Part shown: piece after piece, positions 21,351 to 57,887 of the stretch
Numbering within the stretch: position 1 is the stretch's first letter
Layout: each line of letters opens with the position of its first letter
NCBI GenBank assembly: GCA_028277745.1
Contig: JANQFR010000049.1
Location: 1-64,000 of the forward strand
Direction: 5' to 3'
DNA: 64,000 bases
Source of the DNA: Phycisphaeraceae bacterium
GTDB lineage: Bacteria > Planctomycetota > Phycisphaerae > Phycisphaerales > Phycisphaeraceae
The notes under the pieces: model-generated
Seen by the model: only the letters and a program-made list of their open reading frames with translations
Databases searched by the model: none
What the model was told of the DNA's origin: nothing
Program-made: the position numbers and the translations under genes

Positions 21351-21611
21351 TCAGCGCTCGCCGGTCTGGCGATACGCCGCTCGTTTGCGGGCGTACTCCT
21401 GGGGGCTCACCGGCAGGTCCGGGTCCGCGGCGCCGTCGAGGCACTGCTGGTGCAGCCGCTTGAGGTACGGCACGCACCACCCGCAGCCGGTGCCGGCGCT
21501 GAGGCATTCGCTGATCAGGCTCGCCACCGCCGGCCGCTCCCGCCGGCAGTAGTTCACGATCTTCCGCTTGCTCACGCGGAAGCACAGGCACACATGGTCG
21601 TCATCCTTCAT
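21351..21611 (-). CDS. BFD-like [2Fe-2S] ferredoxin
   Basis: 86 residues. Four cysteines, C8 and C10 in VCLCFRV and C43 and C46 in GTGCGWC, match the ligand spacing of bacterioferritin-associated ferredoxin (BFD-like [2Fe-2S] domain). In the best-known members the protein reduces bacterioferritin to release iron. A 25-residue polar tail follows the domain. It is a single gene, divergent from recR; no bacterioferritin gene is near. Confidence 0.82.
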   Translation of the reverse strand: MKDDDHVCLCFRVSKRKIVNYCRRERPAVASLISECLSAGTGCGWCVPYLKRLHQQCLDGAADPDLPVSPQEYARKRAAYRQTGER

Positions 21612-21639
21612 CCCCTACATCATAGGTCTCGCCCCTTCC

Positions 21640-21681
21640 GCCATCCGCCATCTGCCATCTGCCATCTGCCATCTGCCATCT
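21640..21681 (+). repeat. Heptanucleotide tandem repeat (GCCATCT)6
   Basis: Six consecutive 7-bp units, the first GCCATCC and the next five GCCATCT, lie 18 bp upstream of the recR start, in the divergent gap between the BFD-like gene and recR. The reading frame of recR is open through the repeat. A 7-bp unit changes frame with each copy gained or lost. Confidence 0.9.
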
Positions 21682-21699
21682 GCACATACAATATCTGTC

Positions 21700-22308
21700 A
21701 TGCCCCGCCCCTCCCGCCCTTCGGCCTACGACCGCCTGCTCGAGCACCTCCAGAAGCTGCCGGGCATCGGCTCGCGCTCGGCCGAGCGGATCGCCTTCCA
21801 CCTGCTCAAACAGCCCGCCGACGACGCCAACGCCCTGGCCGACGCGATCCGCGATTTCACCGCCAACCTCAAGGTCTGCTCGATCACCGGCCACGTCTCC
21901 GAGTCCGACCCGTGCGACATCGCGGTCGACCCCAACCGCGACCACAGCACCATCCTCGTGGTCGAGCAGCCCACCGACGTCTTCTCCATGGAACAGACCG
22001 GGGCCTACCGCGGCTCGTACCACGTCCTGATGGGCCGGATCGCCCCGCTCGAGGCGATCGGCCCGGGCGAGCTCAACATCGACAAACTCCTCGACCGGGT
22101 CCGGGCCGGGGGGGTCAAGGAGGTCATCATCGGCCTCAACCCGACCCTCGAAGGGGATGGCACCGCGCTGTACCTTCATGACGAGCTGACGCGGCTGGGC
22201 GTCAAGGTCACCCGGCTCGCTCGTGGCCTGCCCTCGGGGTCTTCCCTGAATACGTTGTCGAAGGCGGTGCTCTCCGACGCGGTCCAGGGTCGGCAAACCA
22301 TGTCTTGA
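21700..22308 (+). CDS. recR: Recombination protein RecR with degenerate zinc finger
   Basis: 203 residues. The helix-hairpin-helix LQKLPGIGSRSAERIAFHLL is near 18-37 and the Toprim domain follows (ILVVEQPTDVFSMEQTG, GLNPTLEGD, ARGLPSGSSLN). RecR acts with RecF/RecO to load RecA at gapped DNA. The central Cys4 zinc finger is only half present: C60 and C72 remain, while the partners expected at 63 and 75 are Thr and Ala. The ATG at 21700 matches the family start; the frame is open further up through the heptamer repeat. Confidence 0.93.
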   Translation: MPRPSRPSAYDRLLEHLQKLPGIGSRSAERIAFHLLKQPADDANALADAIRDFTANLKVCSITGHVSESDPCDIAVDPNRDHSTILVVEQPTDVFSMEQTGAYRGSYHVLMGRIAPLEAIGPGELNIDKLLDRVRAGGVKEVIIGLNPTLEGDGTALYLHDELTRLGVKVTRLARGLPSGSSLNTLSKAVLSDAVQGRQTMS

Positions 22309-22434
22309 CCAAGATTTGTGTTTTCTGCGGCGTATTCTTTGATTTTCGCGCGGGCTCATCCGATGATATGAGCGCGGCTGCTGTGCAAATGCCGGGCCAA
22401 AGCGGCCTGATCACCCCCTACCCCACGACGCCCC

Positions 22435-23961
22435 ATGCGGATCGACACCGGACAACACCTGCGGATGGACCAGCGGATGAAGCTGGCGCCCCGCATGATC
22501 CAGTCCATGGAGATCCTGCAGATGGCCCAGGCCGCCCTCGAGGAGCGGATCGAGCAGGAACTGGCGTCCAATCCCACGCTGGAGTTGGAGGACCCATCTG
22601 ACGCGGCGGACGACATCGCCGCCGACCTCCAGCAGGAGGCCCGCGACGCTCGCGAGAACGAGCGGGAGCTGGTCGTCACGGATAACGGCGAGGGCCAGAA
22701 CGCCGACGATTTCGAACGCCTCTCCAACCTCGCCGAGGAATACAGCGACGACTGGAAGGCCAACGCCACCGGCTCGGCCGACGACTTTTCCACCTACCAC
22801 GCCGCCGCCAACACCGGCGAACGCGACAAGAAGATGGACGCGATGGCCAACACCGCTGCGCGGTCCGCGTCCCTCTACGACCAGCTCCTGGACCAGTGGC
22901 ATCTGGTCGACGCCCCGCCCCGCATCGCCGAGGCGGGCGAATACCTGATCGGGTTCATCGACAACGACGGCTACCTCCGCACCGACCCCAAGGCCCTGCT
23001 CGACCAGGCCCCGCACCACCTCACCGCCGAGGACCTCGAGCAGGCCATCGACCTGCTGCAGCAGTCCCTCGAGCCGCCCGGCCTCGCGGCGCGCGACCTG
23101 CGCGAATGTCTGCTGCTGCAGATCGACGCCCGGCGGCGGGCCGACCCCGACGCCGATCTGTCCACCGAGCGCCTGCTCGTGGCCGACCACCTCAAGGACA
23201 TCGAGGCCAACCGCCTGCCCCGCATCGCCCGCACCACCGGCCTCACCATCGAGCAGATCACCCACGCCATCCACCACCTGCGCCAGTTCCAGCCCCACCC
23301 CGGCCGGCAGCTCGCCGACGACACGCCCCGCGCCATCACCCCCGACGCCATCGTCGAGTACGACGAGCAGGCCGACGCCTACGTCGCCCACCTCACCCAC
23401 GGCCGCACGCCCAACCTCCAGATCAGCGCCGATTACACCCGCATCGCTTCCGAGAAGTCGACCGACAAAAAAACCCGCGACTTCCTCGGCGGCCAGCTCC
23501 GCAACGCCCGCTGGCTCATCGACGCCATCGAGCAGCGCTCGTCCACGCTCCTGCGGGTGATCAACGTCGTCCTGACCGCTCAGCGCGACTTCTTCGACCT
23601 CGGCCCCCAGGCCCTCAAGCCGCTGCCCATGACCCAGGTCGCCGACCAGTTGGGCATCCACGTCGCCACCGTCAGCCGGGCGGTCAACGAAAAATACCTC
23701 CAGACCCCACGGGGCATCTTCCCCCTGCGGATGTTCTTCTCCGGCGGCGCCGAGACCGAGGACGGCCAGTCCATGGCCTGGGCCGCGATCCAGGCCAGGC
23801 TGGAAGAAGTGATCAACGCCGAGGACAAGTCCAACCCTCTGAGCGACGAGGCGCTGGTGGAGGAGCTGAAAAAGAAAGGCATCGACATCGCCCGGCGGAC
23901 GATCGCCAAGTACCGCAAACAACTCAACATCCCGTCGGCGCGGCAGAGGCGGGAGTATTGA
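22435..23961 (+). CDS. rpoN: RNA polymerase sigma-54 factor
   Basis: 508 residues. Region I (MKLAPRMIQSMEILQM, near 15-30) contacts activators, an acidic region II follows, and the core-binding and HTH segments come next (PMTQVADQLGIHVATVSRAVNEKY). The RpoN box ARRTIAKYRK is at 486-495. It directs transcription from -24/-12 promoters that need ATP-driven activators. No such activator gene is in the window. A glycosyltransferase gene starts 3 bp after the stop. Confidence 0.95.
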   Translation: MRIDTGQHLRMDQRMKLAPRMIQSMEILQMAQAALEERIEQELASNPTLELEDPSDAADDIAADLQQEARDARENERELVVTDNGEGQNADDFERLSNLAEEYSDDWKANATGSADDFSTYHAAANTGERDKKMDAMANTAARSASLYDQLLDQWHLVDAPPRIAEAGEYLIGFIDNDGYLRTDPKALLDQAPHHLTAEDLEQAIDLLQQSLEPPGLAARDLRECLLLQIDARRRADPDADLSTERLLVADHLKDIEANRLPRIARTTGLTIEQITHAIHHLRQFQPHPGRQLADDTPRAITPDAIVEYDEQADAYVAHLTHGRTPNLQISADYTRIASEKSTDKKTRDFLGGQLRNARWLIDAIEQRSSTLLRVINVVLTAQRDFFDLGPQALKPLPMTQVADQLGIHVATVSRAVNEKYLQTPRGIFPLRMFFSGGAETEDGQSMAWAAIQARLEEVINAEDKSNPLSDEALVEELKKKGIDIARRTIAKYRKQLNIPSARQRREY

Positions 23962-23964
23962 TTC

Positions 23965-24852
23965 ATGGCCAACCCGCTGCTGTCGATCGTGATCCCGGTC
24001 TACAACGCAACGCCCTGGCTGGAAAGAACCATCGCCAGTCTCGATCAGATCGCTGAGGGTCATCGTGCGCGTTGCGAAGCTGTTTTTGTAGATGATGGGT
24101 CCAGCGATCACTCCGCCGAGTTTGTTGAACAGATCATCACCTCCCGCAAGCTGACCTGGATGCGCCTGATCCGCAAGACGAACGGCGGGTCCGCTTCGGC
24201 AAGAAACCAGGGCCTGCGTGAAGCCAGAGGAGACTGGGTTTTTTTCCTGGACGCGGACGACGAATTGGCCTGCGACCTCACGACACAGATCGACAGCGCG
24301 CCGCACGCCAGTTGCATTTTGATGTCGACGCAATTCGTACGCCCGGGGACGAAGCCGCGGCAACGCCGGCCGCCCAGGATCGACCCGCACGACACATTGA
24401 CCTGCATGACCGCGGGCAACCCCGTGGTCATTTCATCGATCGTTCTGCGCCGCTCGGGGATCGACCATCTGTTCGATGAAAGATTCCTGAGCCGAGAAGA
24501 CTGGCACTTCTGGATGCAGAACCCGCGTGTTTTTACAGAACCCGTCCGTCGGCCGCAGGTCACGGCTTCGATTATTCACGCGCATGGCGGCAACAAAAGC
24601 GCCAACTACGCTCGCGCCGGCCGATTCCGCGCTATGGTCGCTGACGCTGTATTGAACGAGACAAATAACCCATTAACAAAGAAACAAAGCAACAACCTGG
24701 CAATTCAAAAAAAGGTCGGCAAACTCCAACAAGAACCCCGCATCGGTTTTTCACATCTTATGATCTGGCCGTGCTCATTATCACTATGGCTCAAATCGGT
24801 TGTTTATGGTTTTGGCGATTTCTTCGTTCAAAGGCTTGATCCCTATAGATGA
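23965..24852 (+). CDS. Glycosyltransferase family 2
   Basis: 295 residues. The GT-A fold begins LLSIVIPVYNATPWLERT, with nucleotide-sugar ligands in FVDDGSSDH and the DxD-type FFLDADDEL. Its start is 3 bp after rpoN, but the gene is not functionally related to it. The last 250 bases are AT-rich compared with the first part, which suggests a mosaic origin. It likely adds a sugar in the glycan cluster that follows on the other strand; it converges with the FkbM gene. Confidence 0.85.
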   Translation: MANPLLSIVIPVYNATPWLERTIASLDQIAEGHRARCEAVFVDDGSSDHSAEFVEQIITSRKLTWMRLIRKTNGGSASARNQGLREARGDWVFFLDADDELACDLTTQIDSAPHASCILMSTQFVRPGTKPRQRRPPRIDPHDTLTCMTAGNPVVISSIVLRRSGIDHLFDERFLSREDWHFWMQNPRVFTEPVRRPQVTASIIHAHGGNKSANYARAGRFRAMVADAVLNETNNPLTKKQSNNLAIQKKVGKLQQEPRIGFSHLMIWPCSLSLWLKSVVYGFGDFFVQRLDPYR

Positions 24853-24895
24853 CGCTTGGCCCACGAAACCCGCCGCATATGCGCCGTCTCTGAAG

Positions 24896-25744
24896 TTACG
24901 CTCGCCGGTAGTGGTCATGAACTGTGGAGCCGCGACGATCGGTCCACATCTGACGAAAACCAAAATCCTCAATGCTCTTCCGACACGATGCGAGGTCTTT
25001 CCCGCAACGATTTAATGCGTGCTCGTGCCATTCGATGAAAATTTCGCGCAACCGATCTCCACCCAGCAGATCTTTCATACCTTCCAATACCCCGACTTCT
25101 CCACCCTCCACATCGATTTTAATCACATCAGGGCCGCGTTGTTTTTGAGTGGCGAATGTGTCCAAGGAGATCACCTGCACATCAACGATGGCAAGCCCGT
25201 CTAGGGGTTCTTCGTCCGTAACCAGTCGGTTCTGACCGGACTTGCCTTTTTCTGCGATTTCCAGCTTTCCTGCGGCGTCTCGTTCACCAACCGCCAGACG
25301 ATGCAGGATCATGTTGTCCAATCCGTTGATCCGGCGGTTTTCTGAGAGACGATCAAAATTATCAATATCGGGTTCGAAACAATAAAAAACGCAATTCGAT
25401 TCCGAATCGACTTTCGCCAACGGGATCGTTGTCAAGCCGATATTCGCACCGACATCATAAACCACATCACCGGAACGCAGGCTGTCACGCAAACGCTTAA
25501 GAACCTCCATCTCCCAGATGACCATCGCGTCGATCTGAGCGATCTGGTAACGATTCTTAACCGAGAAAGCAAGGCCTTGTTCAAAGACTCGCTGACGATG
25601 CGTTCCCCGCATCAAGATGACACGATCTCTGGGCCACTTAATGATTGAACTAATGCCCGAACGCGCCAGCCATATCACCAATGGCGAGCGGCCAAACATC
25701 TTATACATGAAGGTTAAACCAATCATTATGACCTCCGGGCTCAC
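24896..25744 (-). CDS. FkbM-family methyltransferase
   Basis: 282 residues. The SAM-binding motif is VVYDVGANIGLTT, and the FkbM pattern continues with FEPDIDNFDRLSENRRING and DVIKIDVEGGEVGVLEGM. FkbM proteins O-methylate polyketides and, in polysaccharide clusters, sugars. The GTG at 25744 overlaps the TGA of the upstream fusion gene by 4 bp, so translation is coupled; an ATG at 25726 is a possible second start. Base composition is lower in GC than the housekeeping genes. Confidence 0.87.
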   Translation of the reverse strand: MSPEVIMIGLTFMYKMFGRSPLVIWLARSGISSIIKWPRDRVILMRGTHRQRVFEQGLAFSVKNRYQIAQIDAMVIWEMEVLKRLRDSLRSGDVVYDVGANIGLTTIPLAKVDSESNCVFYCFEPDIDNFDRLSENRRINGLDNMILHRLAVGERDAAGKLEIAEKGKSGQNRLVTDEEPLDGLAIVDVQVISLDTFATQKQRGPDVIKIDVEGGEVGVLEGMKDLLGGDRLREIFIEWHEHALNRCGKDLASCRKSIEDFGFRQMWTDRRGSTVHDHYRRA

Positions 25745-28149
25745 TCGCCATGCAAGCGCTTCTCACTCGCGTCGCTGATTCTCTTCCGCCATAGAAGATG
25801 GTGGAGCAAGAAAACACCACATAGTCCTCCGGCCGCTTGAGCGATGAAAACGCCTGAAGCCGCAATCCAATACCCCAGGAGGCCCCCACCAATCACAATC
25901 ACGAGGGTCAAGACCGCCGCAACAGCCCAGCCCAAGCTTAACTTGTTTAATCCCCGCGCCAGCGCGGACAATTGGCCATAAATTGCAGCTGCGAGTGCAA
26001 ACAGCATGGCTGACGCCAGCGTTGTGCGTGACACCACCGCGTCAGGACCGAGCCAAACGCTGACGATCCAGGGGCCGGCGATCATCACGCCCACCGATAC
26101 GACGAGCCAGGCGGCTCCCAGCAAGAGTACTGAGAAACCAAGCCCGCGGGCGAGCCAATGCGCCTCGCCCGAACTCACCGCATCGCCGTACGCCGGCCAA
26201 ACGGCCCGTTCGATCGACTGTGAAACAACGATCATCAGCATCGATAGACGGAAAGCCGCGGCGTAAATCGCCACCGCGGATGCTCCATCAGTCATCGCCA
26301 CCAGCAGCGGCCCCGATTGAAACAATAATAAATCCGCCCATATGAAACCCGCGTATCGCCAGCCGCGCCCGAGTAAAGGCGAGACCGCCCGACCACCTGC
26401 ATCACCCCGGGCGAAGGACGGCAGTATGCCCCATCGGCGCCCCAACCAACGCGACAGCAGTCCGCTGATCAGAGGCGGACTCATGAGAATCGCTGCGATC
26501 CACGACATCGGGACCCCGAGCCAGAGCCCTCCGACCGCTAAAGTAATCGCGGCAATCTGGGTGATGATCAGGAACGCGTAAGCCACGTCGCCGCGTTGAC
26601 TGGCTTGCAACGCCACCAGCCAGACGCCGCCATACAGACCTAAAGCCGCGGTCGCCATGGTCACGGCCGCCACCACCGCAACATTGACCGCTCCCGCAGC
26701 GGCCGCGGCGCCCAACACCGTTTCCCAGGGCATCCAGAACGCCGAAGACGCCGATAAGACCGCCGCCCCCAAGGCGACCCATCCGACAAACGCCGCCGCG
26801 CCCGCAATCAACGATCCGGCCCGTTGCGGGTCGACCCAGCGGGCGGCGCCGACCTGAGTCATCAAGGCGTGCGGCACGCCGACTGTCAGCATGCCTAAAC
26901 CGAGCGTTAACGCCGCGACCGTCACCCAGAACCCCATGGCGGCTTCGCCGATCGCCCTGATCATCACGCCAAGCAGGACAAACTGCCCCGCCGCGTATAC
27001 GAACTGATAGACGATCCCTGAAACCGCGGCTCTGATCGCTCTCCCGCCGCGGCTCCGGGACGCCTCCCCCCCGCCGATCAACGCCATTGATTGCGTCAAG
27101 AGGGTTTGATATGACTCCAGTACTGGATTCATGAGGCGGGTCAGCGCCCAACTATTGCCCGTCGGAAGAACAATCCGCCCCGCCAGGTCATGGATGCGAA
27201 GCGTATCGCTCAACCTTCTTTGATCCGAAGACTCACGGCGACGGGCGGCCACCGCAGCCCTGAAAGGTTTCGTCATCATCCGATAGTACTGACGACACTT
27301 CGCATTCGGCATCCAATGCGACAGCACAAACACCCATTGCCCTATTTCCATCAAAACCAGCACGGGCAGCAACAGCAGCAGCGTGCTCCATCGATAGTAG
27401 GTCAACAGCAACGCCCATCGGTTCCGCTCCAAATGTTCATAGGCCTTCAGCGGCGCATTGGGAATGTACTTATGCCGCACCGCCGCGTCCGGACAAAACC
27501 AGCAGGGATAGCCGGCTTGCGTGAGTTTCCATCCCAGGTCGGCGTCTTCGAGATACATGTAAAAGCTCTCGTCGAACAAGCCGAACCGGTCCAAGAGGTC
27601 CATCCGGAGCATGACCGCGCAGCCGGAGGGAAAGTCGATGGTGCGCGGCGTGTCGTACTGTCCCCGGTCCTCTTCGCCGTAGCCGGTCATCATGCCGAAG
27701 CCAAGGTAATGCGAGCGGTTGCCGACGGTGTTGATGATGTTCGGTTGGTCGAAAAGAACGATTTTCGGTTGAACGGCGCCCGCGTCGGGGTGCGCGGCCA
27801 TGAAGTCTGCGAGGGTCCGCAGCCAGCCCGATTCAACGGCGGTGTCCGCATTAAGCAGGACGAGATAGTCGGCGTCGGGGCGTGTCTCCTTAATGTGTTC
27901 ATAGCCCGCGTTATTGGCGCCGGCGTAGCCCCGGTTCTCCGGCAGCGCCAGGACCTCGACATCGGAAAAGTTCTGCCGGACCCACGCGACGCTCCCGTCG
28001 GTTGAGGCGTCATCGACCATCAGCAAGTGAACGTCAACGCCGGGATCGTCGGACGACAACAACGCCTCGAAACAATCTCTGAGGTCGGCTCGATTGTTGT
28101 AGCAAGCGACCATCACCACAACGCGGCGTTTCACGGCGGGATCATTCAC
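25741..28149 (-). CDS. GT2 glycosyltransferase fused to Wzx-type flippase
   Basis: 802 residues from the GTG at 28149, which overlaps the TGA of the DUF2304 gene by 4 bp; the frame is open further up but only over that gene. Residues 1 to about 260 are a GT2 domain (MVACYNN, VDDASTD at 45-51, LLNADT near 99, LEDADLGWKL near 200). One or two hydrophobic helices (250-285) and a basic linker follow. From about 370 to 802 there are 10-12 helices typical of polysaccharide flippases (VSGIVYQFVYAAGQFVLLG onward). One polypeptide thus joins sugar addition and lipid-linked glycan transport. No frameshift or stop separates the halves. Confidence 0.82.
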   Translation of the reverse strand: MNDPAVKRRVVVMVACYNNRADLRDCFEALLSSDDPGVDVHLLMVDDASTDGSVAWVRQNFSDVEVLALPENRGYAGANNAGYEHIKETRPDADYLVLLNADTAVESGWLRTLADFMAAHPDAGAVQPKIVLFDQPNIINTVGNRSHYLGFGMMTGYGEEDRGQYDTPRTIDFPSGCAVMLRMDLLDRFGLFDESFYMYLEDADLGWKLTQAGYPCWFCPDAAVRHKYIPNAPLKAYEHLERNRWALLLTYYRWSTLLLLLPVLVLMEIGQWVFVLSHWMPNAKCRQYYRMMTKPFRAAVAARRRESSDQRRLSDTLRIHDLAGRIVLPTGNSWALTRLMNPVLESYQTLLTQSMALIGGGEASRSRGGRAIRAAVSGIVYQFVYAAGQFVLLGVMIRAIGEAAMGFWVTVAALTLGLGMLTVGVPHALMTQVGAARWVDPQRAGSLIAGAAAFVGWVALGAAVLSASSAFWMPWETVLGAAAAAGAVNVAVVAAVTMATAALGLYGGVWLVALQASQRGDVAYAFLIITQIAAITLAVGGLWLGVPMSWIAAILMSPPLISGLLSRWLGRRWGILPSFARGDAGGRAVSPLLGRGWRYAGFIWADLLLFQSGPLLVAMTDGASAVAIYAAAFRLSMLMIVVSQSIERAVWPAYGDAVSSGEAHWLARGLGFSVLLLGAAWLVVSVGVMIAGPWIVSVWLGPDAVVSRTTLASAMLFALAAAIYGQLSALARGLNKLSLGWAVAAVLTLVIVIGGGLLGYWIAASGVFIAQAAGGLCGVFLLHHLLWRKRISDASEKRLHGE

Positions 28150-28523
28150 GAAGCGTTTGAGCCGGCGTCGGTTTCGGAACGGTTGGACGATTGCGAGATC
28201 GCGATGATCTGCGCCAACTGATCGATCTTGCGCTCCTGCACGCTCACGATCGAAAGCAGGATGAACGTGGTCAGCAGGAAGTAGATCGCGACGCAAAGGG
28301 TCAGCAGGGTCGGCTTTTCGATCTCCAAAACGTTCTGCAGGAAGACGACGCCGTTGGGCCAGAGGGCGAACAAGAGGAACGGCAGGCCGGTGAACAGCAG
28401 CAGCAGGACGTAGCGCTCCTTGAGGCGCTGGGCGCGGAGCGATCGGATCGTGAGCAGCGTGATGACCACGGCGACGCCCAGGAGGATCAACGTGCGCAGG
28501 TGCAGCAGCGTGTCGAGGTTCAT
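28146..28523 (-). CDS. DUF2304 membrane protein
   Basis: 125 residues with three hydrophobic helices and a polar C-terminal tail that begins VQERKIDQLAQIIA. The layout matches DUF2304, a family almost always found beside DPM1-like glycosyltransferases and thought to help present polyprenyl-linked sugars. It overlaps both neighbours by 4 bp (GT2 upstream, fusion gene downstream), which fits that role. Function remains inferred. Confidence 0.82.
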   Translation of the reverse strand: MNLDTLLHLRTLILLGVAVVITLLTIRSLRAQRLKERYVLLLLFTGLPFLLFALWPNGVVFLQNVLEIEKPTLLTLCVAIYFLLTTFILLSIVSVQERKIDQLAQIIAISQSSNRSETDAGSNAS

Positions 28524-29257
28524 GGCGGGGCGATCCTTTCAGCGGGCCAGGGGTTGCGGATCAGGTCGAGCAGCAAGGCGGCGGACACCTTGGCGACGTA
28601 GAAAAGGCCGTGGAGGAAGGGGATGGACGTGACGCCGGCGAGGCGCTCCTCCATGACCACGGACGCCTCGGCGACGCGGAAGCCGGCGCGGTGGAGCAGG
28701 AGGATGACCTCCGGCTCGGGGTAGTCGTCGGGGTACCAGTAGGCGTAAGCGTGGATGACGCGCCGGTTGGCGGCCCGGAAGCCGGAGGTCGGATCGGTGA
28801 TCCCGACGCGGGTGCAGAGATTGATCAGGTGCCGGATGACGCGGATGCCGAGCATGCGTGAGGCGGGGGGCAGGTAGCCGTCGCGTTGGAGGAAGCGGGA
28901 GCCGATGATCAGGTCGGCGTTTTTTTCACGCATGGCGTCGAGGAGTTTGCTTACTTCGGCGGGGGGGTGCTGCCCGTCGCCGTCGACCTGGACGGCGACG
29001 TCGTAGCCGTGCATGGCGGCGTAGCGGTATCCGGTCTGCATGGCCCCGCCGATGCCGAGGTTGAACGGCAGCCGGACGACCGCGGCGTCGGCGGGAACCT
29101 CCTGGGCGGTGCGGTCGGTCGAGGCGTCGTCGACCACGAGCACGTCGGCGCCGGGCAGGCAGCGGCGGACCTCCTGAACGACCGAGGCGATGGAGCCGGC
29201 CTCATTGTGCGCGGGGATGATAATCAGCAGGCGTGGCGACGCCGGATCGGTCGGCAT
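28520..29257 (-). CDS. DPM1-like glycosyltransferase family 2
   Basis: 245 residues without membrane helices. It has LLIIIPAHNEAGSI at the start, VVDDASTDRT near 40, and QVDGDGQHPP near 95, the pattern of dolichyl/polyprenyl-phosphate mannose or glucose synthases. Its product would be a lipid-linked sugar used on the outer face of the membrane. It is first in a run of four minus-strand genes with coupled stops and starts (DPM1-like, DUF2304, GT2-flippase, FkbM). Confidence 0.87.
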   Translation of the reverse strand: MPTDPASPRLLIIIPAHNEAGSIASVVQEVRRCLPGADVLVVDDASTDRTAQEVPADAAVVRLPFNLGIGGAMQTGYRYAAMHGYDVAVQVDGDGQHPPAEVSKLLDAMREKNADLIIGSRFLQRDGYLPPASRMLGIRVIRHLINLCTRVGITDPTSGFRAANRRVIHAYAYWYPDDYPEPEVILLLHRAGFRVAEASVVMEERLAGVTSIPFLHGLFYVAKVSAALLLDLIRNPWPAERIAPP

Positions 29258-29320
29258 AGATGGATGATAAAGGGTGGGCCCGCCGACTGCGAAGCGGCCG
29301 GGGTTGGTGATGTCTTGAGA

Positions 29321-29368
29321 TCCGGACCTTCGGCCGCCTGCGGCGCCCTCAGGACCGGCTTTGGGCTT
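29321..29368. repeat. Hairpin repeat, family B, copy 1
   Basis: A unit of about 48 bp, CCGGACCTTCG-GCCGCC-TGC-GGCG-CCCTCAGGACCGG, that recurs at 39637-39685 and, more diverged, at 60178-60226. The core can fold as GCCGCC-TGC-GGCGG. It is in the gap between glyA and the DPM1-like gene. Confidence 0.75.
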
Positions 29369-29372
29369 GGCG

Positions 29373-30653
29373 TCAGTGCGGCATCGGGAACCGTCGGCAA
29401 ACCTGCTGCACCTGCTCGCGCACCTCGTCGTGGACGGCCTCGTCGCCGCCGGCGGAGAGGACCTGATCGATCAGGGAGGCGACGATGCGGATGTCGTCTT
29501 CCTTGAAGCCGCGGGTGGTGAGGGCGGGCGTGCCCAGGCGCAGGCCGCTGGTGACCTTGGGGGGGCGGGGGTCGTTGGGGATGCCGTTCTTGTTGGTAAT
29601 GATGCCGGCGGCCTCGAGCCACTGCTCGGCCTCGGCGCCGGTGAGGGACTCGCTCTTGGGGCGGAGGTCGACGAGCATGAGGTGGTTGTCGGTGCCGCCG
29701 GAGCAGAGGCGGTAGCCGTGGCCGGTGAGGGCCTCGGCGAGGGCCTGGGCGTTGGCGACGACCTGCTGGGCGTAGGTCTTGAATTCGGGGCGCAGGGCTT
29801 CACCGAAGGCGGCGGCCTTGGCGGCGATGATGTGCATGAGCGGCCCGCCCTGCGAGCCGGGGAAGACGCGGCGGTCGACCTTCTTGGCGATCTCTTCATC
29901 GTCGGTGAGCAGCAGGCCGCCGCGCGGGCCGCGGAGGGTCTTGTGCGTCGTGGTGGAGACGAGGTGGGCGTGGGGGAACGGCGAGGGGTGGACGCCCGCG
30001 GCCACGAGCCCGGCGATGTGGGCGATGTCGGCCATGAGGAAGGCGCCGACCTCGTCGGCGATCTCACGGAACTTCGCGAAGTCGATGACGCGCGGGTAGG
30101 CGGAGTAGCCGCAGATGATGAGCTTGGGCTTGTGCTCGAGGGCCTGGCTGCGGACGTGATCGAAGTCGATCAGCTCGGTCTCCGGATCGAGGCGGTAGTC
30201 GACGATACGGTAGAAGTGGCCGGAGAAGTTGACCTTGAGCCCGTGGGAGAGGTGCCCGCCGGAGGCGATGGGCAGGGACAGGACGGTATCGCCGGGCTGG
30301 AGCAGGGCCATGAAGGCGGCGACGTTGGCGTTGGCGCCGGAGTGGGGCTGGACGTTGGCGAAGCGGCAGTTGAACAGCTGCTTGGCGCGGTCGCGGGCGA
30401 GGTCTTCGACCTGGTCGTGGAACTGGCAGCCGCCGTAGTAGCGTGCGCCGGGATAGCCCTCGGCGTACTTGTTGGTGAGCACGGTGCCCATCGCCGCCAT
30501 GACCGCGGGGGATGCGTGGTTCTCCGAAGCGATCATCTCGAGGGTGTTCTCCTGCCGCATCTGCTCGGCGGAGACCATCCGCCACAACTCGGGGTCGTGT
30601 TGCGCGATGGGGTTGGAGGGGGCGTCAAGGGTCGCGGCGTCTGCGGCGGTCAT
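29373..30653 (-). CDS. glyA: Serine hydroxymethyltransferase
   Basis: 426 residues from the ATG at 30653, chosen for the GGAG about 5 bases upstream; a longer frame to 30749 adds an unlikely Arg-rich leader. The PLP lysine is K238 in [14 protein letters not shown]. Other family segments are [28 protein letters not shown] and [10 protein letters not shown]. It converts serine and tetrahydrofolate to glycine and methylene-tetrahydrofolate. The catalytic features are all in place. Confidence 0.95.
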
Positions 30654-30745
30654 GGGCGTCTCCGGGGTATCGGATGTGGCGTCGGGAGGCGAGGCGGGGT
30701 GAGGATTCAATCGTAGCCGTGCGCGGCGGCGGCCGCAATCCGCGG

Positions 30746-33700
30746 TCATCGCGGGCCGAGCGGGGCGCCGTCGATGACGAACGTGCGGTTCTGGCCCCCC
30801 AGAAGCAGGCGATTATCGAGGGCGATCGTCAGGGACGGCGTCAACCGCTGGGGCGTGACCGGGAGATAGTGCTCTTCGAGGATGGCCCCGTTTTCGCGGT
30901 CAAGCACGAACAGGCCGCAAAGCGGCCGATGCTCCGCCGGGAGGGGCGGGTCGGCGTGGAGCCACGGCTCGTCATCGGGCCGGGCCTGGTCATCGGGGTC
31001 GAGCGCGGCGGCGACGACCACAAACCGTCGGGTGACCCATTGCGTCAACAGGCGTTTGCCGATGCCGCTGGAGATGGCGTCCCGCCAAAGCAGCGCCCCT
31101 TCGGCGGAAATCGCGACGGCTTCCATGGCGGAGAGCAGCTGCCATTGGTGCTCGGCCACGACCGCCTGGACCGTCGGGTCACCCTCGGTCGCTTGAAGGG
31201 GGACCATCGTGAGGGCCTGCCCGGACCTTGGGTCCAGGCCGAGGGCGGCGTTTTTGGCGTCAAACAGCATGAGGAGATTCGGGTCGACCCAGCAACGGTT
31301 GGTGAGCATGAAATCGGCCGGGCTGGTCCGCCACGCCACGACGCCGTCGAAGCTGTGGTAAGCGGTGATGCGCCGCACCCCGACCGCGATCAGCAGGCCG
31401 TCGCCGGTGAAGCCCAGCCACTGGCGGTTCTCCTCGTCTTCAAGGGTGGGGCAGCGGGGCTCGCCGGTAACCAGGTCGAGCATGACGACGGCGTTGCCCG
31501 CGGCGTCGGTGCCGGGCGAGGTGACGCCCGCCAGGGCGATGGTGTCGTAGCCGACCTCGAGCAGCGAGAGGCTGTCGATGTCACTGCGGTGCTGCCAGAG
31601 CGTCCGGCCGGTGCGGCGGTCGATCCCCGCGACCCGGCCGGCGGTGTTGGCCAACACGATCACGCTCTCACTCAGGCCCACGAAAAAGCCCGGTTCGGGC
31701 GTCGTGACATTGGGGGCCAACCGCCCATCCCGCACGATCACCGGGCCGAGGTCGATCTGTCGGATGAACTGCCGCTGCTCGGCGCGGTCGTCTTCCGCCC
31801 GGCGCGGCCCGCCGACCGCGTCAAGCAACGCCGCGCCGTCGACCATCGCGTAGGCGGCCTCTCCGGTCGCCGCTTCGAGCACGTACACCCGTCCCTGCCG
31901 CGGCGACCACAGCAACACGTCCGCATCGGTCATCGCCAGCAGTTCGAGCGGCCCATCGTCCGGCCGGCTGAAGCTCCACAGCGGCTGCGCCAGGTTGTCG
32001 CCGTAGCAGAAAGCGGTCTGGTCGCGGAACACCATGAACCGGTCGCGCGGCGCAAACAACGACGAAGACGCCGGGGGGGTCATCAACATGCCGGGCACCG
32101 ATTGGACGCCGGACAGCGGCAGCGTCACGGTCGGCAGCCGGCTGTGGACCGCCTCGCGCATCGACAGGTCCGCGAGCCAGCGGTCGATGTCGACCGGCGC
32201 GCCGTCGCGGATCGGCGCGAGCCCGGGCTGCTCACGGCTGACGCGGCGCAGCCATTGCGCGGCGCGCGACGGCTGGTCAGCGCGGTCGTACGCCTCCGCC
32301 AGGGCGCCCGCGATCAGGGCGATCAGCTCGGGGTCGTCGGACATCGGGTAGGCCCGCCGCAACGACCGCGCCGCCGCCGCCGACTCGCCGCGATCGATGT
32401 CGATCCGCCCCGCCTCATACAGCGCCCGCGGCGCCGCGGTCGACAAGGGGTAGGCGTCCGCCAGCGCCGTCATCGCCGCCGCGTCGGGCCCCGCGCGCCG
32501 CCGCAGCTCCGCCAGCCGCTGAGCCGCCATCGCGTCGTAGCGCTGATACACCGGCCGGCCGTGCCGCTCGATCAGCCGCGCCAGGCGGTGGCGGGCTTCG
32601 ATCCCCGCCTGCCGCACGTTCGTGCGGTCGGTGTAGAGTTGGGCCGACAACGTCGGGTCCAGCAGGATCGCCTGGTAGTGATCCACGGCCGACTCGATCC
32701 GGTCGACCTGCTCCAGGAACCGTGCAAGGGTGATCTGGTAAGCCGCCTCCTGGGCCGGGTCCGCCGTGGCGGTCGCCAGTCGGTCGAACAGTGCCGACCG
32801 CAGCTCGACCCCGCCGCCGCGGTCGGCGCGCGTCAAGTCCAGCACCTGCTCGAACACCCGCGCCTGGGTCAGCGATTCGTGATGCTCCACCGCCGCCAGG
32901 GTGTGGTCCACCCCCGCCAGCACCGCGTCATCCCGTCCCGAACGCAACGCGAGCTGCGCCAACGCCAGCCCCGGCTCGACCGACTGGGGCTGGTCCATCA
33001 TCTGTCGCGTCAGGTTCGCATACGCCCGGTTCCATCCCAGGTACGCCCGCAACAGCGTGCTGGTCGCCAGAACCGCCTGCCCCTCGAGCACGAGCACGTT
33101 GCCCGGTTCGCCCGTGCCCATCTCGCGGATGACCCGGCCGTCGTCGAGCGACACACAGACCACCCGGTCGTTGGTCGACGCCGCCACGAAGTCCCGCGTC
33201 ACGCTCACCATGCCGCTGACCTCACCCGCGGCGCCGGCGCCGAGCGGGGCCGTCCAGCGGGGCTCGAGCGTCCGCCCGTCAAACAGCGTCAACCCGCGCC
33301 CGACGCCCAGCACGTCGTCGCCCGCCTCGATCAGGTAACGCACCCCCGCCCAGGCCTTGCCGGTCGGCGGCTCAAGCAACGCGCCCGTCTCGGGGTCCAG
33401 CCGCATCACCCGCACCGATCGCTGCTGGACCATCGGCGCCAGCAGGCCCGCCTCGACCACCACCGGGCGGGCGAACCCGTAAGCGGATCCGTCGTTGCGC
33501 CCGCGCTGCCCCGCCGACGCCAGGACGTCGTCGCCGAACACCTTCACCCATCGCGCCTGGCCGCTGCGGCCGTCGATCGCGGCGACGACGCCCACGTTGT
33601 CGCTCACGTACACCCGTTGGCCGGCCGTCAACGCCTGAGGCGAGGGCCCCGCCGCGTACCGGCTCGCGGTCACCGTGCTCGAGATATGCCGCCGCCAGAG

Positions 33701-51080: not shown

Positions 51081-52073
51081 TTACTCGTCCTGTTCGCGTC
51101 CAGACCGTTCGCCCTGATCGGGCTTCGGGCGGGAAGAAGCAGCCTCTCCACCTTCTGGTTTTGCCAGAGCCGATGTCTCTTGAACGAGGTTGCGATTGAG
51201 CACCGCTTCCGGCGTCTCCCCGGACCGCTTGGCCTCGTGCAAAAGACATCGGAGCTTAAACGCGACCATGCCGTCATAGTTTGCGATAAACAGGCAAAAA
51301 CGGTAACCCACCCATCCATCGAGTAAACCCAGTCGAAAAATATACATGTATGCAAAACGCCAGAATGCCGGAAACGGAATAGTCCGAGTCACGTTCCGTT
51401 TGAGCCACCGACGGCGGCGGGTCTGATCGGTCAGGTTTGCAGAGTCGATGTTATCACGCAGCCCCATGATCTCGCGGTAAGTTTCACGGGATTCCAGCGT
51501 CGAATAACGGTTGTGCTTTGCATAGAAATGCTCAAGTCCACGACGGTCGTTATGGATCATGGGCTCAGAGATGTAACCAACCGGATCATCGATGATGACA
51601 TGCTCGTGGACCTGTCGATCCTCGTACCGTGCAGAGCCGCGTTTGAACAGCCGTAGATTCCAACTTGGGAAATAGCCGCAGTGACGGATTGGCCTGTCTA
51701 GAAAGTAAGTCAGTCGATTAAGAAAGAAACCATTCTCGTGAATTTCATCCGCCGGTTTTGAAGTGATTTCAAGGATCTGTTCCCGAAGCCGGGGGGTGAT
51801 CTCTTCGTCTGCATCAAGAACCAGGACCCAGTCCGCATGAATCGGCAGGTTCTCCAGCGCCCAGTTCCGCTGCGCCGCGTAACCCGGCCACGGATGCTCC
51901 ACCACTTCAGCGCCCATCTCACGGGCGACATCATGCGTGCCGTCAACAGAGCCCGAGTCAATGACGAACACCTTGCGGGTCCAGCCCTGCAAGGACCGTA
52001 AAGCGTGCGGAAGGTTCAGAACCTCGTTGTATGTAATGATAATAACATCAATCATGGCGGCCCAGTTTGACAT
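51081..52073 (-). CDS. Glycosyltransferase family 2 (WaaE/KdtX-like)
   Basis: 330 residues. MIDVIIITYNEVLNLPHALRSL opens the fold, VIDSGSVDGTHDVAREMGAEVV is close to the WaaE/KdtX group, and VLVLDADEEITPRL gives the metal ligand. Members add glucose or related sugars to core oligosaccharide. A basic tail (RPKPDQGERSGREQDE) follows. ATG 52073 is used; ATG 52055 is an alternative. It is upstream of the heparinase-like gene on the same strand. Confidence 0.87.
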   Translation of the reverse strand: MSNWAAMIDVIIITYNEVLNLPHALRSLQGWTRKVFVIDSGSVDGTHDVAREMGAEVVEHPWPGYAAQRNWALENLPIHADWVLVLDADEEITPRLREQILEITSKPADEIHENGFFLNRLTYFLDRPIRHCGYFPSWNLRLFKRGSARYEDRQVHEHVIIDDPVGYISEPMIHNDRRGLEHFYAKHNRYSTLESRETYREIMGLRDNIDSANLTDQTRRRRWLKRNVTRTIPFPAFWRFAYMYIFRLGLLDGWVGYRFCLFIANYDGMVAFKLRCLLHEAKRSGETPEAVLNRNLVQETSALAKPEGGEAASSRPKPDQGERSGREQDE

Positions 52074-52209
52074 CGACTAAAGATTGAATGTGTAAGGCCT
52101 TTCTCCTCCCTGCCCGAACTTCATGATGTCAGGCAGGCGTTAACACAAACCGTTTCAATATCAGGTTTCGGCGCTATTATTGGCTTATCGCCGCGATCGT
52201 CAACTCATA

Positions 52210-53424
52210 CTATCGGGATTCAAGGAAGTCCAGATATAACTCGGCCTGACGTTTAACATTGAAATTCTCCATCGCCCGCGACCGCGCCGCCATAGAGAAC
52301 TGAGGCCAACGCGGACGGTCACTCAGCACCCGACGGATTCCCGATTCAAACGCCTCGACATCAGGGGCCGATACATGCCAACCCGTCTGCCCGTCCAGGA
52401 CTGTTTCCGCCGGGCCGCCCAGAGCGTGGACCAGAACCGGCACGCCCATCATCATTGCTTCGATCACCGATAGACCAAACGGCTCAGGATCCACGCGGCT
52501 GTTTACGGCAATATCCATCGCCCCATAATATCGCTCTGGATGATCGACCTGGCCTGGCATGTGTAACCTATGCGATTGCCCGGCGCCCTCCGCCAGCCTG
52601 AGAAGACCCTTGGCGTAAGCCCCTTCCACGGGGCCGCCTATCAACAGCAAATGCAAATCCTCATCATCTTTCGCCGCAACATTCAACATGGCTTGTAAAA
52701 ACCGATCGGCTCCCTTACTGGCATCCAGCCGGGCCACGATGCCGAACACCACCGCCTTGTCGGGCAAGTTCAATGCGGCGCGTGTCAATGGCTCGACACG
52801 GCCCGGGTTAAAGATGGTTGAATCTACGCCCAGATGCATCAGCCGTCTCCTGACACCCGCCGCCTTGCCAAGTGTCGCCGCCGTATACGCGCTGTTGGCC
52901 AACACCGTAACGCCATATCTTCGACAAAGCCCTAAGTAGTATCTGCGGTTAAGCCCCCACAAGGATTCGTTCATCGCATTTGGCATTTCCCATACAGGCT
53001 GGGCGCCCAGGCGCTCCGCGACGCCGCCAACGATGCCGACAAAACTGGGCCACAGACAATGCACCACGTCCACCCTGCTGTCCACGAACGCTTGTCCAAC
53101 TGCATCAACGATCCGGCGACGGAACCGCCGGAGCCTCCAGACTCCCAACGCCTTCGCAATGACCCCCCCGGCAAGGTCTGGAGCACGCTCCAGGTTCAGA
53201 CGCACGACCTTAAAACCCAACGCATCGCCTCGCGACGCCATCGGTCCATCAATGCAGCAGATAAAAATCGGCCGGCGCCCCATCCGATCCAGTTGCGCAG
53301 CCAGTGACTCCACCGCCCGCGCCACGCCAAACCCCTCGTCGCCCTGAAGCATCCACGCGATGGTCAACGGGTGATTAGTTGATAAATGTGACGCGGCAGC
53401 ATCAACTGAAATATTGTTGTTCAT
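52210..53424 (-). CDS. Glycosyltransferase family 4
   Basis: 404 residues with the GT-B layout: LTIAWMLQGDEGFGVARAVESLAAQL at the start, then VVFGIVARLDASKGADRFL and DPEPFGLSVIEAMMMGVPVLVHALGG, the E-x7-E signature region. It transfers an activated sugar to a growing glycan. Its ATG overlaps the TGA of the next gene upstream by 4 bp, so the two glycosyltransferases are translated together. Confidence 0.88.
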   Translation of the reverse strand: MNNNISVDAAASHLSTNHPLTIAWMLQGDEGFGVARAVESLAAQLDRMGRRPIFICCIDGPMASRGDALGFKVVRLNLERAPDLAGGVIAKALGVWRLRRFRRRIVDAVGQAFVDSRVDVVHCLWPSFVGIVGGVAERLGAQPVWEMPNAMNESLWGLNRRYYLGLCRRYGVTVLANSAYTAATLGKAAGVRRRLMHLGVDSTIFNPGRVEPLTRAALNLPDKAVVFGIVARLDASKGADRFLQAMLNVAAKDDEDLHLLLIGGPVEGAYAKGLLRLAEGAGQSHRLHMPGQVDHPERYYGAMDIAVNSRVDPEPFGLSVIEAMMMGVPVLVHALGGPAETVLDGQTGWHVSAPDVEAFESGIRRVLSDRPRWPQFSMAARSRAMENFNVKRQAELYLDFLESR

Positions 53425-54689
53425 GATGCTCCCGCCAGCCGACTATTTTCATATCGGTTCAACGTAGACTCAATGGTCTGGTGAACCTCAGAACGAAATC
53501 GTTCAAAAGAGAAATGCTCCACAACCACCTGCCTACCATTGGCGGCCAATCGCCGCGCTTCATCCGGATGAGTCAATAGCGTCGCGATAACATCGGCCAT
53601 TTCCGTATCATTATCGGCCACCCTCACCGCAAGTCCATCCGCCAAGATATGTTCGTAGCCGCAAAGTGAATGGGACGTCGTAACGCAAGCGCGGTTATAT
53701 GCAAGCGACTCAATAACCTTGATCTTGGTTCCCCCCCCTTCATATATTGGCGAAACCGTGAAACACGCTTTTCGATACGCTTCCTCGAGCTGTGGAATAA
53801 AGCCCGCTACCTCGACCCCATTTTCGGCGCCCCACCGTCGACGCTGCTTGTCTGACGTGTGAGATCCAACGATTCGCAGTACCGCGTTCGGACAACGCTG
53901 ACGAACGCGCGGCCATACCTGTGTCACCAGCCGATCAATTCCACGAGCATTTGGCCCATGATTCATGCTCCCGACAACCATCACCGTCCGGCCGTCAGAT
54001 TCAGGATGAGGCTGCGGTGACGGGACTCGGTCCGCAAACGCAAATGGAATGTTAGGCAGAACTGATACGTTGCGGTGGTGTTGAACCAGCGGCAGGTCGG
54101 TCTGATTCGAAAGCCAAAGATGCTGCATTCGTGACAGGCAAGACGGTAACAGTCGCTCGAGCTGGCGGAGATGACGACGAATCACCCAGCGGGACGCCGC
54201 GGTTTCCCACGGCGCATTCAAACGTGTTGCGTAAACCTGCGTGTCTAAGTCATCGATGTCAAGTATCGTCTTCAGCCCATCAGCCACACCAGACTGAAGC
54301 GTCGGTAAAAGATATCTCCCAACCGCCAGATCGTATGAACGACCCGCCGTCGCAGCCTTCACCCGCTCGACGGTGACTGGGTCGCTCCGATAATCCAGCG
54401 TCCGGCGGCCCAGATTATGCGCCAGTCGCTGGACCAACTTCGGTGCTAATGGACGAATGTGCCGCCACGGCGCCCGGTCGCTGTGCAACGGTGCAGGGAA
54501 CACACCCAGGAAACCCCAGGCTTTCTCCAAGTCAACCCACGTATCCTTGGGGATGTCATGACGCACCAGTCCAATAGCGTCGACCTCCGCGACTTCCCGC
54601 AAAGCACGCATCAGCAAGTTCGTCCGCTGATTGCCGCCGATGACGGGCGGGATCGGCAGGATTTTTGAAATAAAGAGAATTCGCAACAT
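53421..54689 (-). CDS. Glycosyltransferase family 4-like protein
   Basis: 422 residues from the ATG at 54689. N-terminal LRILFISKILPIPPVIGGNQRTNLLMRAL and C-terminal ACFTVSPIYEGGGTKIKVIESLAYNRACVTT match the GT4 variety that carries EGGGTKIK before the second glutamate. The nucleotide-binding part includes VMVVGSMNHGPNARG. It is directly downstream of the flippase and coupled to the following glycosyltransferase. Confidence 0.87.
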   Translation of the reverse strand: MLRILFISKILPIPPVIGGNQRTNLLMRALREVAEVDAIGLVRHDIPKDTWVDLEKAWGFLGVFPAPLHSDRAPWRHIRPLAPKLVQRLAHNLGRRTLDYRSDPVTVERVKAATAGRSYDLAVGRYLLPTLQSGVADGLKTILDIDDLDTQVYATRLNAPWETAASRWVIRRHLRQLERLLPSCLSRMQHLWLSNQTDLPLVQHHRNVSVLPNIPFAFADRVPSPQPHPESDGRTVMVVGSMNHGPNARGIDRLVTQVWPRVRQRCPNAVLRIVGSHTSDKQRRRWGAENGVEVAGFIPQLEEAYRKACFTVSPIYEGGGTKIKVIESLAYNRACVTTSHSLCGYEHILADGLAVRVADNDTEMADVIATLLTHPDEARRLAANGRQVVVEHFSFERFRSEVHQTIESTLNRYENSRLAGAS

Positions 54690-54729
54690 CGGCAAGAGAT
54701 TTTAGCAGCTGATTCCCATGCGGGTCGAG

Positions 54730-56328
54730 CTACGGTTTGGGAGGTTGAGGAAAAGTAGAGCGCCGCTTAATAATCGACTGGAGTTTCATGGCCGCCACCG
54801 ATGCAACACGGCGGCAATGATGCCGTTCGAAAGATGTTAAACCAATGGTCCATGCGGCGACCAACGTAGCCAACGTAGTAATCACAACGATTAATCCGAG
54901 ACGAACGTATCCTGGCGCCAACAGGGCGTACACCACACCACTCGACACGAGCGTCACAGCGGAAACCCCCGAAATTGGGGCAAGGCTTCGCCAAATAAAG
55001 TCTGACGCCGGCATTTCCGTGACGATCGAAACATAAATCGCGCGAACAATACTCCAGATCCCGGTTGCCGCCAAGGCGGCCCAAACAAAGCCGGAAGGAC
55101 CCCAAGAAAACGTTGCGGCGCCGAACCAGCCGATCACCACTGCTGCGAGTTGAAATGCGACGCCTAAAATCGTGAGGGTTCGAAGCTGGCCGCGGGCGGA
55201 CATTAAAATGGCGTAACCACTACTAATCGTCTCAAACAACATGGTCACCATTGCGATGCGCACAAACAACGGCGTCCAGTCTGGGTAATCACTCAGCCAA
55301 AGCGTCAAGACCATTTCGGTCTCCCACCACACAGGGACAAACAACAAAAATGAAACATAAAACGGGAACTTGTTCGCCATATGGACGAGTTGATTCACCC
55401 CTGTCGATTGCCCCCCTCGGCCATACATCGTCGCCATCGCCGGTTGAATCGCGCTCATTAAGGCCCAAGTCAACTGGCTCTGATAACTCACAACCTGAAC
55501 AGCAATTGCATAAGACGCATTGACCACTGTTCCGAACAACACATTCAATAGAAAGACCGTACCTTGCAGCCGAACCCGGGTGGCCATCGCCAACAATACG
55601 GCCCATCCGCCGAAGGAAAGCAATTCCGCCGCCATCGTACGGCTTGCGCCTCGTATCCCTTGCCGACACGCGGGGTAACGCACCATACACACCAGAACCA
55701 TCAGCGCTTCCAGCACAGTTGAAGCCAGCAAAGTCAATACCGCGTATGTCGCAAGCCGGTCGGCCGGGGTTATCAGCAACACTAACACGACCGCCAACGT
55801 CGCCAGCCGCCCTACGAGTTCAAACGCGGTGCTGATGGGGATTTCCTGGCGGGCGGTAATCATGGCCGAATACGGCGTGACCGCGAGAGCTACCCCCACC
55901 CGGACGATCGTTGCCCCCAACACCCACCACGCCGCAACCTGCCGCCCTTCTGGAATCTGAACAACATAGATAATGCCGGGCATCAGTAAAGCGCCAAGTA
56001 ATACTATTCCCCCGCCAGCGGCAAGATGAATCAGTAGACTTGAAGCAAATACACGACGCAATGCCGCATCATCTTCACGGCCAATCTCATGCGCCATATG
56101 TCGCACGCCGCTGGCGTTAAGCGCGTCACGAAGCATAGAGAGAAGCGCCCCGCTGGCGCCTAATGCGGTCAGAAGCCCGAAGTCTGACACTCCTATGAAC
56201 CGGATCAACAGCCGCGTCACCACCAAGCCAATGCCGACCGTTACCCCCATGCGGAGATACATTACGGTTGAGTTGACTATCAAACGCGTCGACTGGCGCA
56301 ATTGAACCCGCCTTATCGCAAGCAACAC
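54730..56328 (-). CDS. Wzx-type oligosaccharide flippase
   Basis: 532 residues from a GTG at 56328; the frame opens at a TTG at 56349, and neither start has a strong ribosome site, so the N-terminus is uncertain. About 13 hydrophobic helices are seen, the first at VMYLRMGVTVGIGLVVTRLLI. The pattern (RFIGVSDFGLLTALGASGALLSML, NVLFGTVVNASYAIAVQV) is that of MATE-like polysaccharide flippases that move undecaprenyl-linked glycans across the inner membrane. It heads the minus-strand glycan operon. Confidence 0.85.
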   Translation of the reverse strand: MLLAIRRVQLRQSTRLIVNSTVMYLRMGVTVGIGLVVTRLLIRFIGVSDFGLLTALGASGALLSMLRDALNASGVRHMAHEIGREDDAALRRVFASSLLIHLAAGGGIVLLGALLMPGIIYVVQIPEGRQVAAWWVLGATIVRVGVALAVTPYSAMITARQEIPISTAFELVGRLATLAVVLVLLITPADRLATYAVLTLLASTVLEALMVLVCMVRYPACRQGIRGASRTMAAELLSFGGWAVLLAMATRVRLQGTVFLLNVLFGTVVNASYAIAVQVVSYQSQLTWALMSAIQPAMATMYGRGGQSTGVNQLVHMANKFPFYVSFLLFVPVWWETEMVLTLWLSDYPDWTPLFVRIAMVTMLFETISSGYAILMSARGQLRTLTILGVAFQLAAVVIGWFGAATFSWGPSGFVWAALAATGIWSIVRAIYVSIVTEMPASDFIWRSLAPISGVSAVTLVSSGVVYALLAPGYVRLGLIVVITTLATLVAAWTIGLTSFERHHCRRVASVAAMKLQSIIKRRSTFPQPPKP

Positions 56329-56524
56329 TTCACCGGCATTCCCCGGCAATTATTCGAAATTTCCCGCATCAGTGCAATCGCCGCGTTCATTAATGAAAGG
56401 TTATCTTCGTTTTACATTAAATATTATCGGGAAAGTAACGGCGACAGACAGCGACACTTAATGGCGGACCTCTGGCTCATATCATCATCCGGCCCTGGAT
56501 TGATCATAAAACCATTCCAGGTTT

Positions 56525-56738
56525 CGACAAAAGACGTCATAGAACATAATCACTCGGTTTACCGACATATCTCACTAGAAGCGACATCGCGACTGATGAC
56601 TACAGACACTCGCAGTGGCCAGGCATTGCGTAAACCATGGTTCGCTTTCTGCAAGAAACGCCATATGTCAGGATGTTCGCGGACATCAATCCGCGGGGAA
56701 CGTGCAGCGGGGAATTACATCCAAGCAAAAAAAGCTGA
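56525..56738 (+). pseudogene. Decayed C-terminal fragment of a SAM methyltransferase
   Basis: In the frame of 56583 the sequence reads IATDDYRHSQWPGIA, stop, TMVRFLQETPYVRMFADINPRG, which matches the intact gene downstream (IAIDDYKHPRWPGVTQAANRFLHETP...ILADLN). A Gln codon has become TAA at 56631, and the frame is lost near 56580. The remnant and the intact gene are in tandem on the same strand, so one arose by duplication or recombination. The open frame at 56302-56805 over it is a different, meaningless frame. Confidence 0.75.
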
Positions 56739-56886
56739 GGGATCCGGCCGGGCGCTGCAATCCAAGAAACAGCTCCAACCACACGGCTTTCAGATAGCGG
56801 ATTAGCATCGTTCAAAAATGATTTCCAAGTATGAAAATCTAGGCGTAACAAACCGGCAAACAATTGTTCTGTGGTACTATATTATT

Positions 56887-57675
56887 ATGACGAGCCGTGT
56901 AAAGCCAAAAAGAACAATCGCTAATCGCATCCACTCCATAGCTGGAAGACTGCTCCCCGACCGCTACAGGTTCCGTGTCGCACGGGCTTACCACGGATTC
57001 CGTGGCTCTCCATGCGTCGACCGCCCCGCATACGACACCCACTCCTTCGGCAATGATGCCGAGATGAGCTCCATTTCTCAGATGTTTGCGAAGCTCAAAG
57101 GGGTTCCCGGCTTCTTTAACATCGACGACTGTGCTCATTTCTCACTCATTTTACGCACACAAACAGCTTTAAGAATTACTGGGGACATACTCGAAATCGG
57201 TAGTTACTTCGGACGTTCAACCGCCCTGCTTGCCGCGGGCCTCGCTGACGGTGAAAAACTGGTTATCTGCGATGCTTTCGAGGCGGATACGCCTGACGTA
57301 TATATAGAACGCCCATCACCCGAGCAATTACTGTCTACAATCCGGCGTATTAACCCCGATATAGAAAACGAGCGACTGGAAATTCACGTTTGCTTGAGTC
57401 ATCAACTGCGATTAGACCCGGCGAAACGTTTCCGCTTCGTTCATATCGACGGCGATCACTCGGAAGATGGAGCGCTTAAAGATATTCAAATGGTTCACCA
57501 GCACCTCCTCCCCGGAGGCGTCATCGCGATCGATGACTACAAACACCCGAGATGGCCAGGTGTTACGCAAGCGGCTAACCGCTTTCTCCATGAGACGCCC
57601 GATGTCAGCATACTCGCCGACCTCAATCGGCACGGAGAAAGCGGTCAGAAACTTTATCTATGCAAGAAACATTAG
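56887..57675 (+). CDS. Class I SAM-dependent methyltransferase (TylF/Methyltransf_24-like)
   Basis: 262 residues from the ATG at 56887; ATG 56818 is in frame but lacks family similarity. The SAM motif is GDILEIGSYFGRSTALLAAGL, followed by FVHIDGDHSEDGALKDI and GGVIAIDDYKHPRWPGV, the typical acidic metal-binding pattern of this group. It probably methylates a sugar in the surface glycan. The region is AT-rich. The gene diverges from the flippase operon and is preceded by its own decayed copy. Confidence 0.85.
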   Translation: MTSRVKPKRTIANRIHSIAGRLLPDRYRFRVARAYHGFRGSPCVDRPAYDTHSFGNDAEMSSISQMFAKLKGVPGFFNIDDCAHFSLILRTQTALRITGDILEIGSYFGRSTALLAAGLADGEKLVICDAFEADTPDVYIERPSPEQLLSTIRRINPDIENERLEIHVCLSHQLRLDPAKRFRFVHIDGDHSEDGALKDIQMVHQHLLPGGVIAIDDYKHPRWPGVTQAANRFLHETPDVSILADLNRHGESGQKLYLCKKH

Positions 57676-57798
57676 AAAAAGACGATTTTGATTCACTTGA
57701 TCAAAACCACTCGGCTCAAACACATCTCGTATTTTACAACGTATATAAAGTGAGCCTCTTTGCGGGCATCCTTAAGGCGCCTCTTCCGCCCATCACGT

Positions 57799-57832
57799 AA
57801 AAAACTCCCCGCTTATGAATAAGCGGGGGAGT
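57799..57832 (-). terminator. Intrinsic terminator after the prepilin-like gene
   Basis: On the minus strand a stem ACTCCCCCGCTTA/TAAGCGGGGAGT, with one bulged base and a short loop, is followed by six T residues. It lies 55 bp after the stop of the prepilin-like gene and also faces the end of the methyltransferase gene. Confidence 0.85.
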
Positions 57833-57887
57833 ATGAATTCAAACAGTTGCATTGTCTCAAACGCTGTTAAAGCAATAATCAAACTGT

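Follow-up and report, generated by a model that had tools for sequence, protein, structure and literature searches.

We found a single open reading frame that joins a GT2 glycosyltransferase to a Wzx-type flippase in a 64,000-nucleotide stretch of bacterial DNA (the window). With a probability of about one half, two modular glycan genes were joined end to end by a small indel, recently and in this lineage only, and such a young natural fusion is favoured over an assembly error. Both halves are conserved and share one frame, so the fusion is far from being a chance open frame. The frame runs on the minus strand from a GTG at 28149 to a TGA at 25743-25741 and has no internal stops; this agrees with the uninterrupted 802 residues reported, with no strand given, in a first-pass annotation of the window. 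The frame and its neighbours, together with the flippase gene of another cluster, are as follows.

28520..29257, minus strand: DPM1-like GT2 in a GacI-like position (PF00535, 1.3e-20)
28146..28523, minus strand: DUF2304 small membrane protein, GacJ-like (PF10066, 2.8e-14)
25741..28149, minus strand: GT2-flippase fused gene, one open frame of 802 aa, GTG start, TGA stop
24896..25744, minus strand: FkbM-type methyltransferase (PF05050, 3.1e-17)
54730..56349, minus strand: second flippase, unfused, in the other polysaccharide cluster (profile match, 8.6e-25)

The coupled four-gene unit described in the first-pass annotation is real, since every neighbouring pair (DPM1-like/DUF2304, DUF2304/fused gene, fused gene/FkbM) overlaps by 4 nt. 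As had been stated, the flippase gene at 54730 stands by itself. The source genome carries a further free-standing Polysacc_synt flippase (G000:C90:6335-7129), with an open frame of 513 codons.

The fused frame was divided into two modules.

27109..28149, minus strand: GT2 module, residues 1-347, GT-A fold (PF00535, identity to relatives, fused model)
25741..27087, minus strand: MOP/Wzx-type flippase module, residues 355-802 (start aligned to the start codons of free-standing relatives; structure)

The N-terminal part matched PF00535 at 4.4e-21 (76 bits, against a Pfam cut-off of 23.3). In the model of the fused chain it adopts a GT-A fold with structural matches to GalNAc-T2, SpsA and WrtF, followed by a single hydrophobic membrane helix at about 254-277 and then a basic tail (K+R 13 vs D+E 5). 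Free-standing GT2 relatives from nine genomes of the same family were 39-47% identical over the whole GT2. Of the 46 positions at which the nine relatives do not vary, the fused protein retains the residue at 43 and differs at three (L27F, F197Y and W348Q). The acidic residues D46, D51, D102, E201 and D202 are invariant in all ten proteins, and we take their roles to be catalytic from knowledge of the family. The profile match, the fold and the acidic motifs agree with the complete GT2 domain proposed earlier. The free-standing membrane-associated GT2s (G034, G026, G016 and others) share with the fused gene the PF00535 domain, the helix, the basic tail and the cassette slot after DUF2304. However, they end in YWxxARRLIxW, whereas the fused frame continues into the flippase.

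A Pfam search of residues 355-802 matched no family. Flippase homologues in the class match PF01943 (Polysacc_synt), PF13440 (Polysacc_synt_3) or MatE; when PF01943, PF13440 and MurJ were considered, five homologues (L044, L046, L047, L051 and L053) gave a match and the fused protein gave none. The model of the flippase half had a pLDDT of 89.1 and a pTM of 0.87. Its matches extended over the whole length, with Z-scores of 32.7 for WzxE, the nearest solved structure, about 26 for MurJ and about 25-29 for MATE proteins. Because the predicted fold matches all three over the whole length, the earlier assignment to the Wzx type is right at the level of the fold, as a predicted transporter of the MOP superfamily. 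The lipid III flippase WzxE (PDB 9G9N/9G9P; PMC11706664) shares this fold over 403-408 residues, and the 12-helix class is common to it, to the other Wzx and MurJ proteins of the superfamily and to the flippase half of the fused protein. However, identity to these proteins is only 11-15%, and the fused protein differs from them in having a flippase with no Pfam match and a GT2 at its N-terminus.

We then compared the locus with those of relatives. A variable cassette is bounded by glyA, DPM1-like and DUF2304 genes on one side and by rpoN-recR on the other, and its layout in relatives is glyA / DPM1-like / DUF2304 / GT2 and/or flippase / rpoN. Six genomes (G016, G002, G025, G073, G074 and G026) have the GT2 with no homologous flippase next to it, and in three (G068, G070 and G067) the flippase follows immediately on DUF2304, with no homologue of this GT2. 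Wherever both modules occur, they are adjacent and in the same order as separate genes, overlapping in G006 and with a 43-nt gap in G035. The closest GT2, that of G034, is also separate, and a different Polysacc_synt flippase lies 17 nt downstream of it. Thus, the relatives do show two genes with a stop near residues 340-370, which the first-pass annotation had named as evidence against its reading. The GT2 genes of the nine same-family relatives end at query residues 357-359, and four homologous flippases have their start at the position matching M355; therefore, the fusion point is the normal border between the two genes.

Two features define the join.

27085..27126, minus strand: junction region, residues 342-355, from P342 (27126-27124) to the internal ATG M355 (27087-27085)
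27096..27122, minus strand: +1-frame remnant YWSHIKPS-TGA, resembling the conserved GT2 tail; probable original C-terminus and stop

The join lies close to the junction near 27040 that had been annotated, and no linker has been added at this usual gene border. In frame, residues 343-347 matched the GT2 family weakly (0.026), and the residues after Y347 (QTLLTQSMALI) showed no more likeness to the conserved GT2 tail than random sequence does (0.27); W348Q removes an otherwise invariant tail tryptophan. In the +1 frame, the DNA at 27122-27096 reads TAC TGG AGT CAT ATC AAA CCC TCT TGA. This tail scored 10.0 against the tail profile, a value that 40 of 5000 random sequences reached (a chance of about 0.8%); the relatives' own tails, left out one by one, scored 8.0-24.4. 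A gap of 8 nt separates the TGA (27098-27096) from the flippase ATG (27087). This suggests that the ancestral GT2 tail, with its stop, survives in the other frame, an indication tempered by the weak in-frame match of residues 343-347. Because the in-frame tail is random and the +1 frame reads a tail-like YWSHIKPS-stop, the fusion looks like a small indel that bypassed this TGA. We also considered the G7 run (27073-27067) as an error site but preferred 27123-27126, because on reading the frames a one-base shift at the G7 run gave a GT2-like tail in neither.

The young fusion may be explained as follows. The ancestor would have carried the DPM1-like, DUF2304, GT2, flippase and FkbM genes as separate, coupled genes, and we infer that the change ran from separate genes to the fusion. 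A small indel in the last GT2 codons (about 27123-27126, next to P342), net one base out of frame, would have put the GT2 stop at 27098-27096 out of phase; the original frame would then continue into the flippase, whose ATG at 27087 is in that frame. In the product, a cytoplasmic GT2 would add a sugar to a presumably undecaprenyl-linked glycan at the inner leaflet, and its basic tail would tether it to a 12-helix flippase for the export of such a lipid. The fused chain is presumably made in the cell with both halves working, and each half probably does no more than its separate counterpart would. Translation from the internal ATG may also still yield free flippase.

The fusion could also be an artefact of assembly or base calling, in which a wrong base or small indel merged two genes whose true border is the TGA at 27098-27096, or a stop nearby, with the flippase 8 nt on. 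This would account for the two genes in all relatives and for the +1 frame holding a tail-like peptide and stop where they would be expected, with a normal spacing of 8 nt. The fusion is known from a single draft genome of 99 contigs, where a base-level assembly error would look identical. However, there is no homopolymer at the indel site (CCAGTACTGG), and the other genes of the 64-kb window are intact long frames. Moreover, four codons separate NP from YW in the relatives and only one base does so in the fused gene, so that a pure one-base error would need a natural 12-base deletion as well. Taken together, an artefact is possible but rather unlikely.

The first-pass annotation had interpreted the gene as an evolved device that couples sugar addition to export. 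The domains, open frame, operon partners and unfused second flippase on which it drew all stand; the idea of a coupling device is not supported. A selected bifunctional chain, in which the last cytoplasmic sugar addition is tethered one to one to flipping and only completed glycans are exported, would fit the frame being intact in both halves, the coupled operon with its DPM1-like/DUF2304 pair, and the plausibly cytoplasmic position of both termini at the join, given the basic tail. We found no specific support for it. The join is sited at the gene border, and it shows no linker, second occurrence or conserved inter-domain feature. The fused model is weak there (pLDDT 56-68 over residues 320-370), the modules are exchangeable among relatives, where they also occur alone or as a separate pair, and the +1-frame remnant also speaks against selection for coupling. 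We regard this reading as improbable. Loss of the GT2 stop by a single substitution, with no indel, is very improbable: several codons in 345-362 are one base from a stop (353, 354 and 357 each so), but this would leave unexplained W348Q, the randomness of the tail in frame and its likeness in the +1 frame.

The homologues in the family, order and class samples and the phylum matches listed included no other fused GT2-flippase, so the same domain order in independent genomes, which would mark a stable fusion family, was not seen. A frame of 818 codons in the order sample (G829:C47) was rejected as a second fusion, since its upstream part is an Arg/Pro-rich out-of-phase translation and not a GT2. 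Eight long Polysacc_synt frames among the phylum-sample matches listed (two in G135, and one each in G278, G372, G219, G246, G230 and G269) were rejected on the same grounds. In the high-GC genomes of the phylum sample (L071-L078), open frames upstream of the true flippase starts are out-of-phase translations that mimic fusions; open-frame length alone misleads as a sign of fusion in such genomes. A scan of genome contigs for closer relatives gave distant GT2s only, and no description of a GT-flippase fusion was found in the titles and abstracts of a limited open-access library.

In the GacI-GacJ system, a DPM1-like transferase and its DUF2304 partner make an undecaprenyl-phosphate sugar that is later flipped by Wzx (PMC8327497). 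In GacI-GacJ and EpaI-EpaJ (PMC8327497), the DPM1-like gene is followed immediately by DUF2304, with a flippase downstream, as in the unit studied here. However, their flippase is a separate protein, and in our unit it is joined to the GT2. By analogy with GacI-GacJ, the product of the unit is probably a small lipid-linked glycan, methylated by FkbM and exported, and the fused gene would supply its second transferase and its flippase. Transferases and export components that are separate proteins have been proposed to interact (PMC4182512), so a tethered pair would agree with known biology. Should the fused chain be made and work, it would show that a Wzx-type flippase can carry a transferase at its N-terminus, on the cytoplasmic side, and the protein would be a ready tethered pair for asking whether completion of the glycan is coupled to its flipping. 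Should the fusion instead stem from the assembly, one small indel between abutting genes is enough to give a convincing 'new' fusion in high-GC drafts.

The glyA/DPM1-like/DUF2304/rpoN-recR frame (21568-30749) is conserved (L036, L037, L041, L042 and L067), and the glycan genes that it holds differ between genera. GC3 was 0.51-0.71 in both polysaccharide cassettes of the window (23965-28149 and 51081-58742), whereas backbone genes are at about 0.85-0.95; such a drop is what one expects of glycan genes that are imported or change fast.
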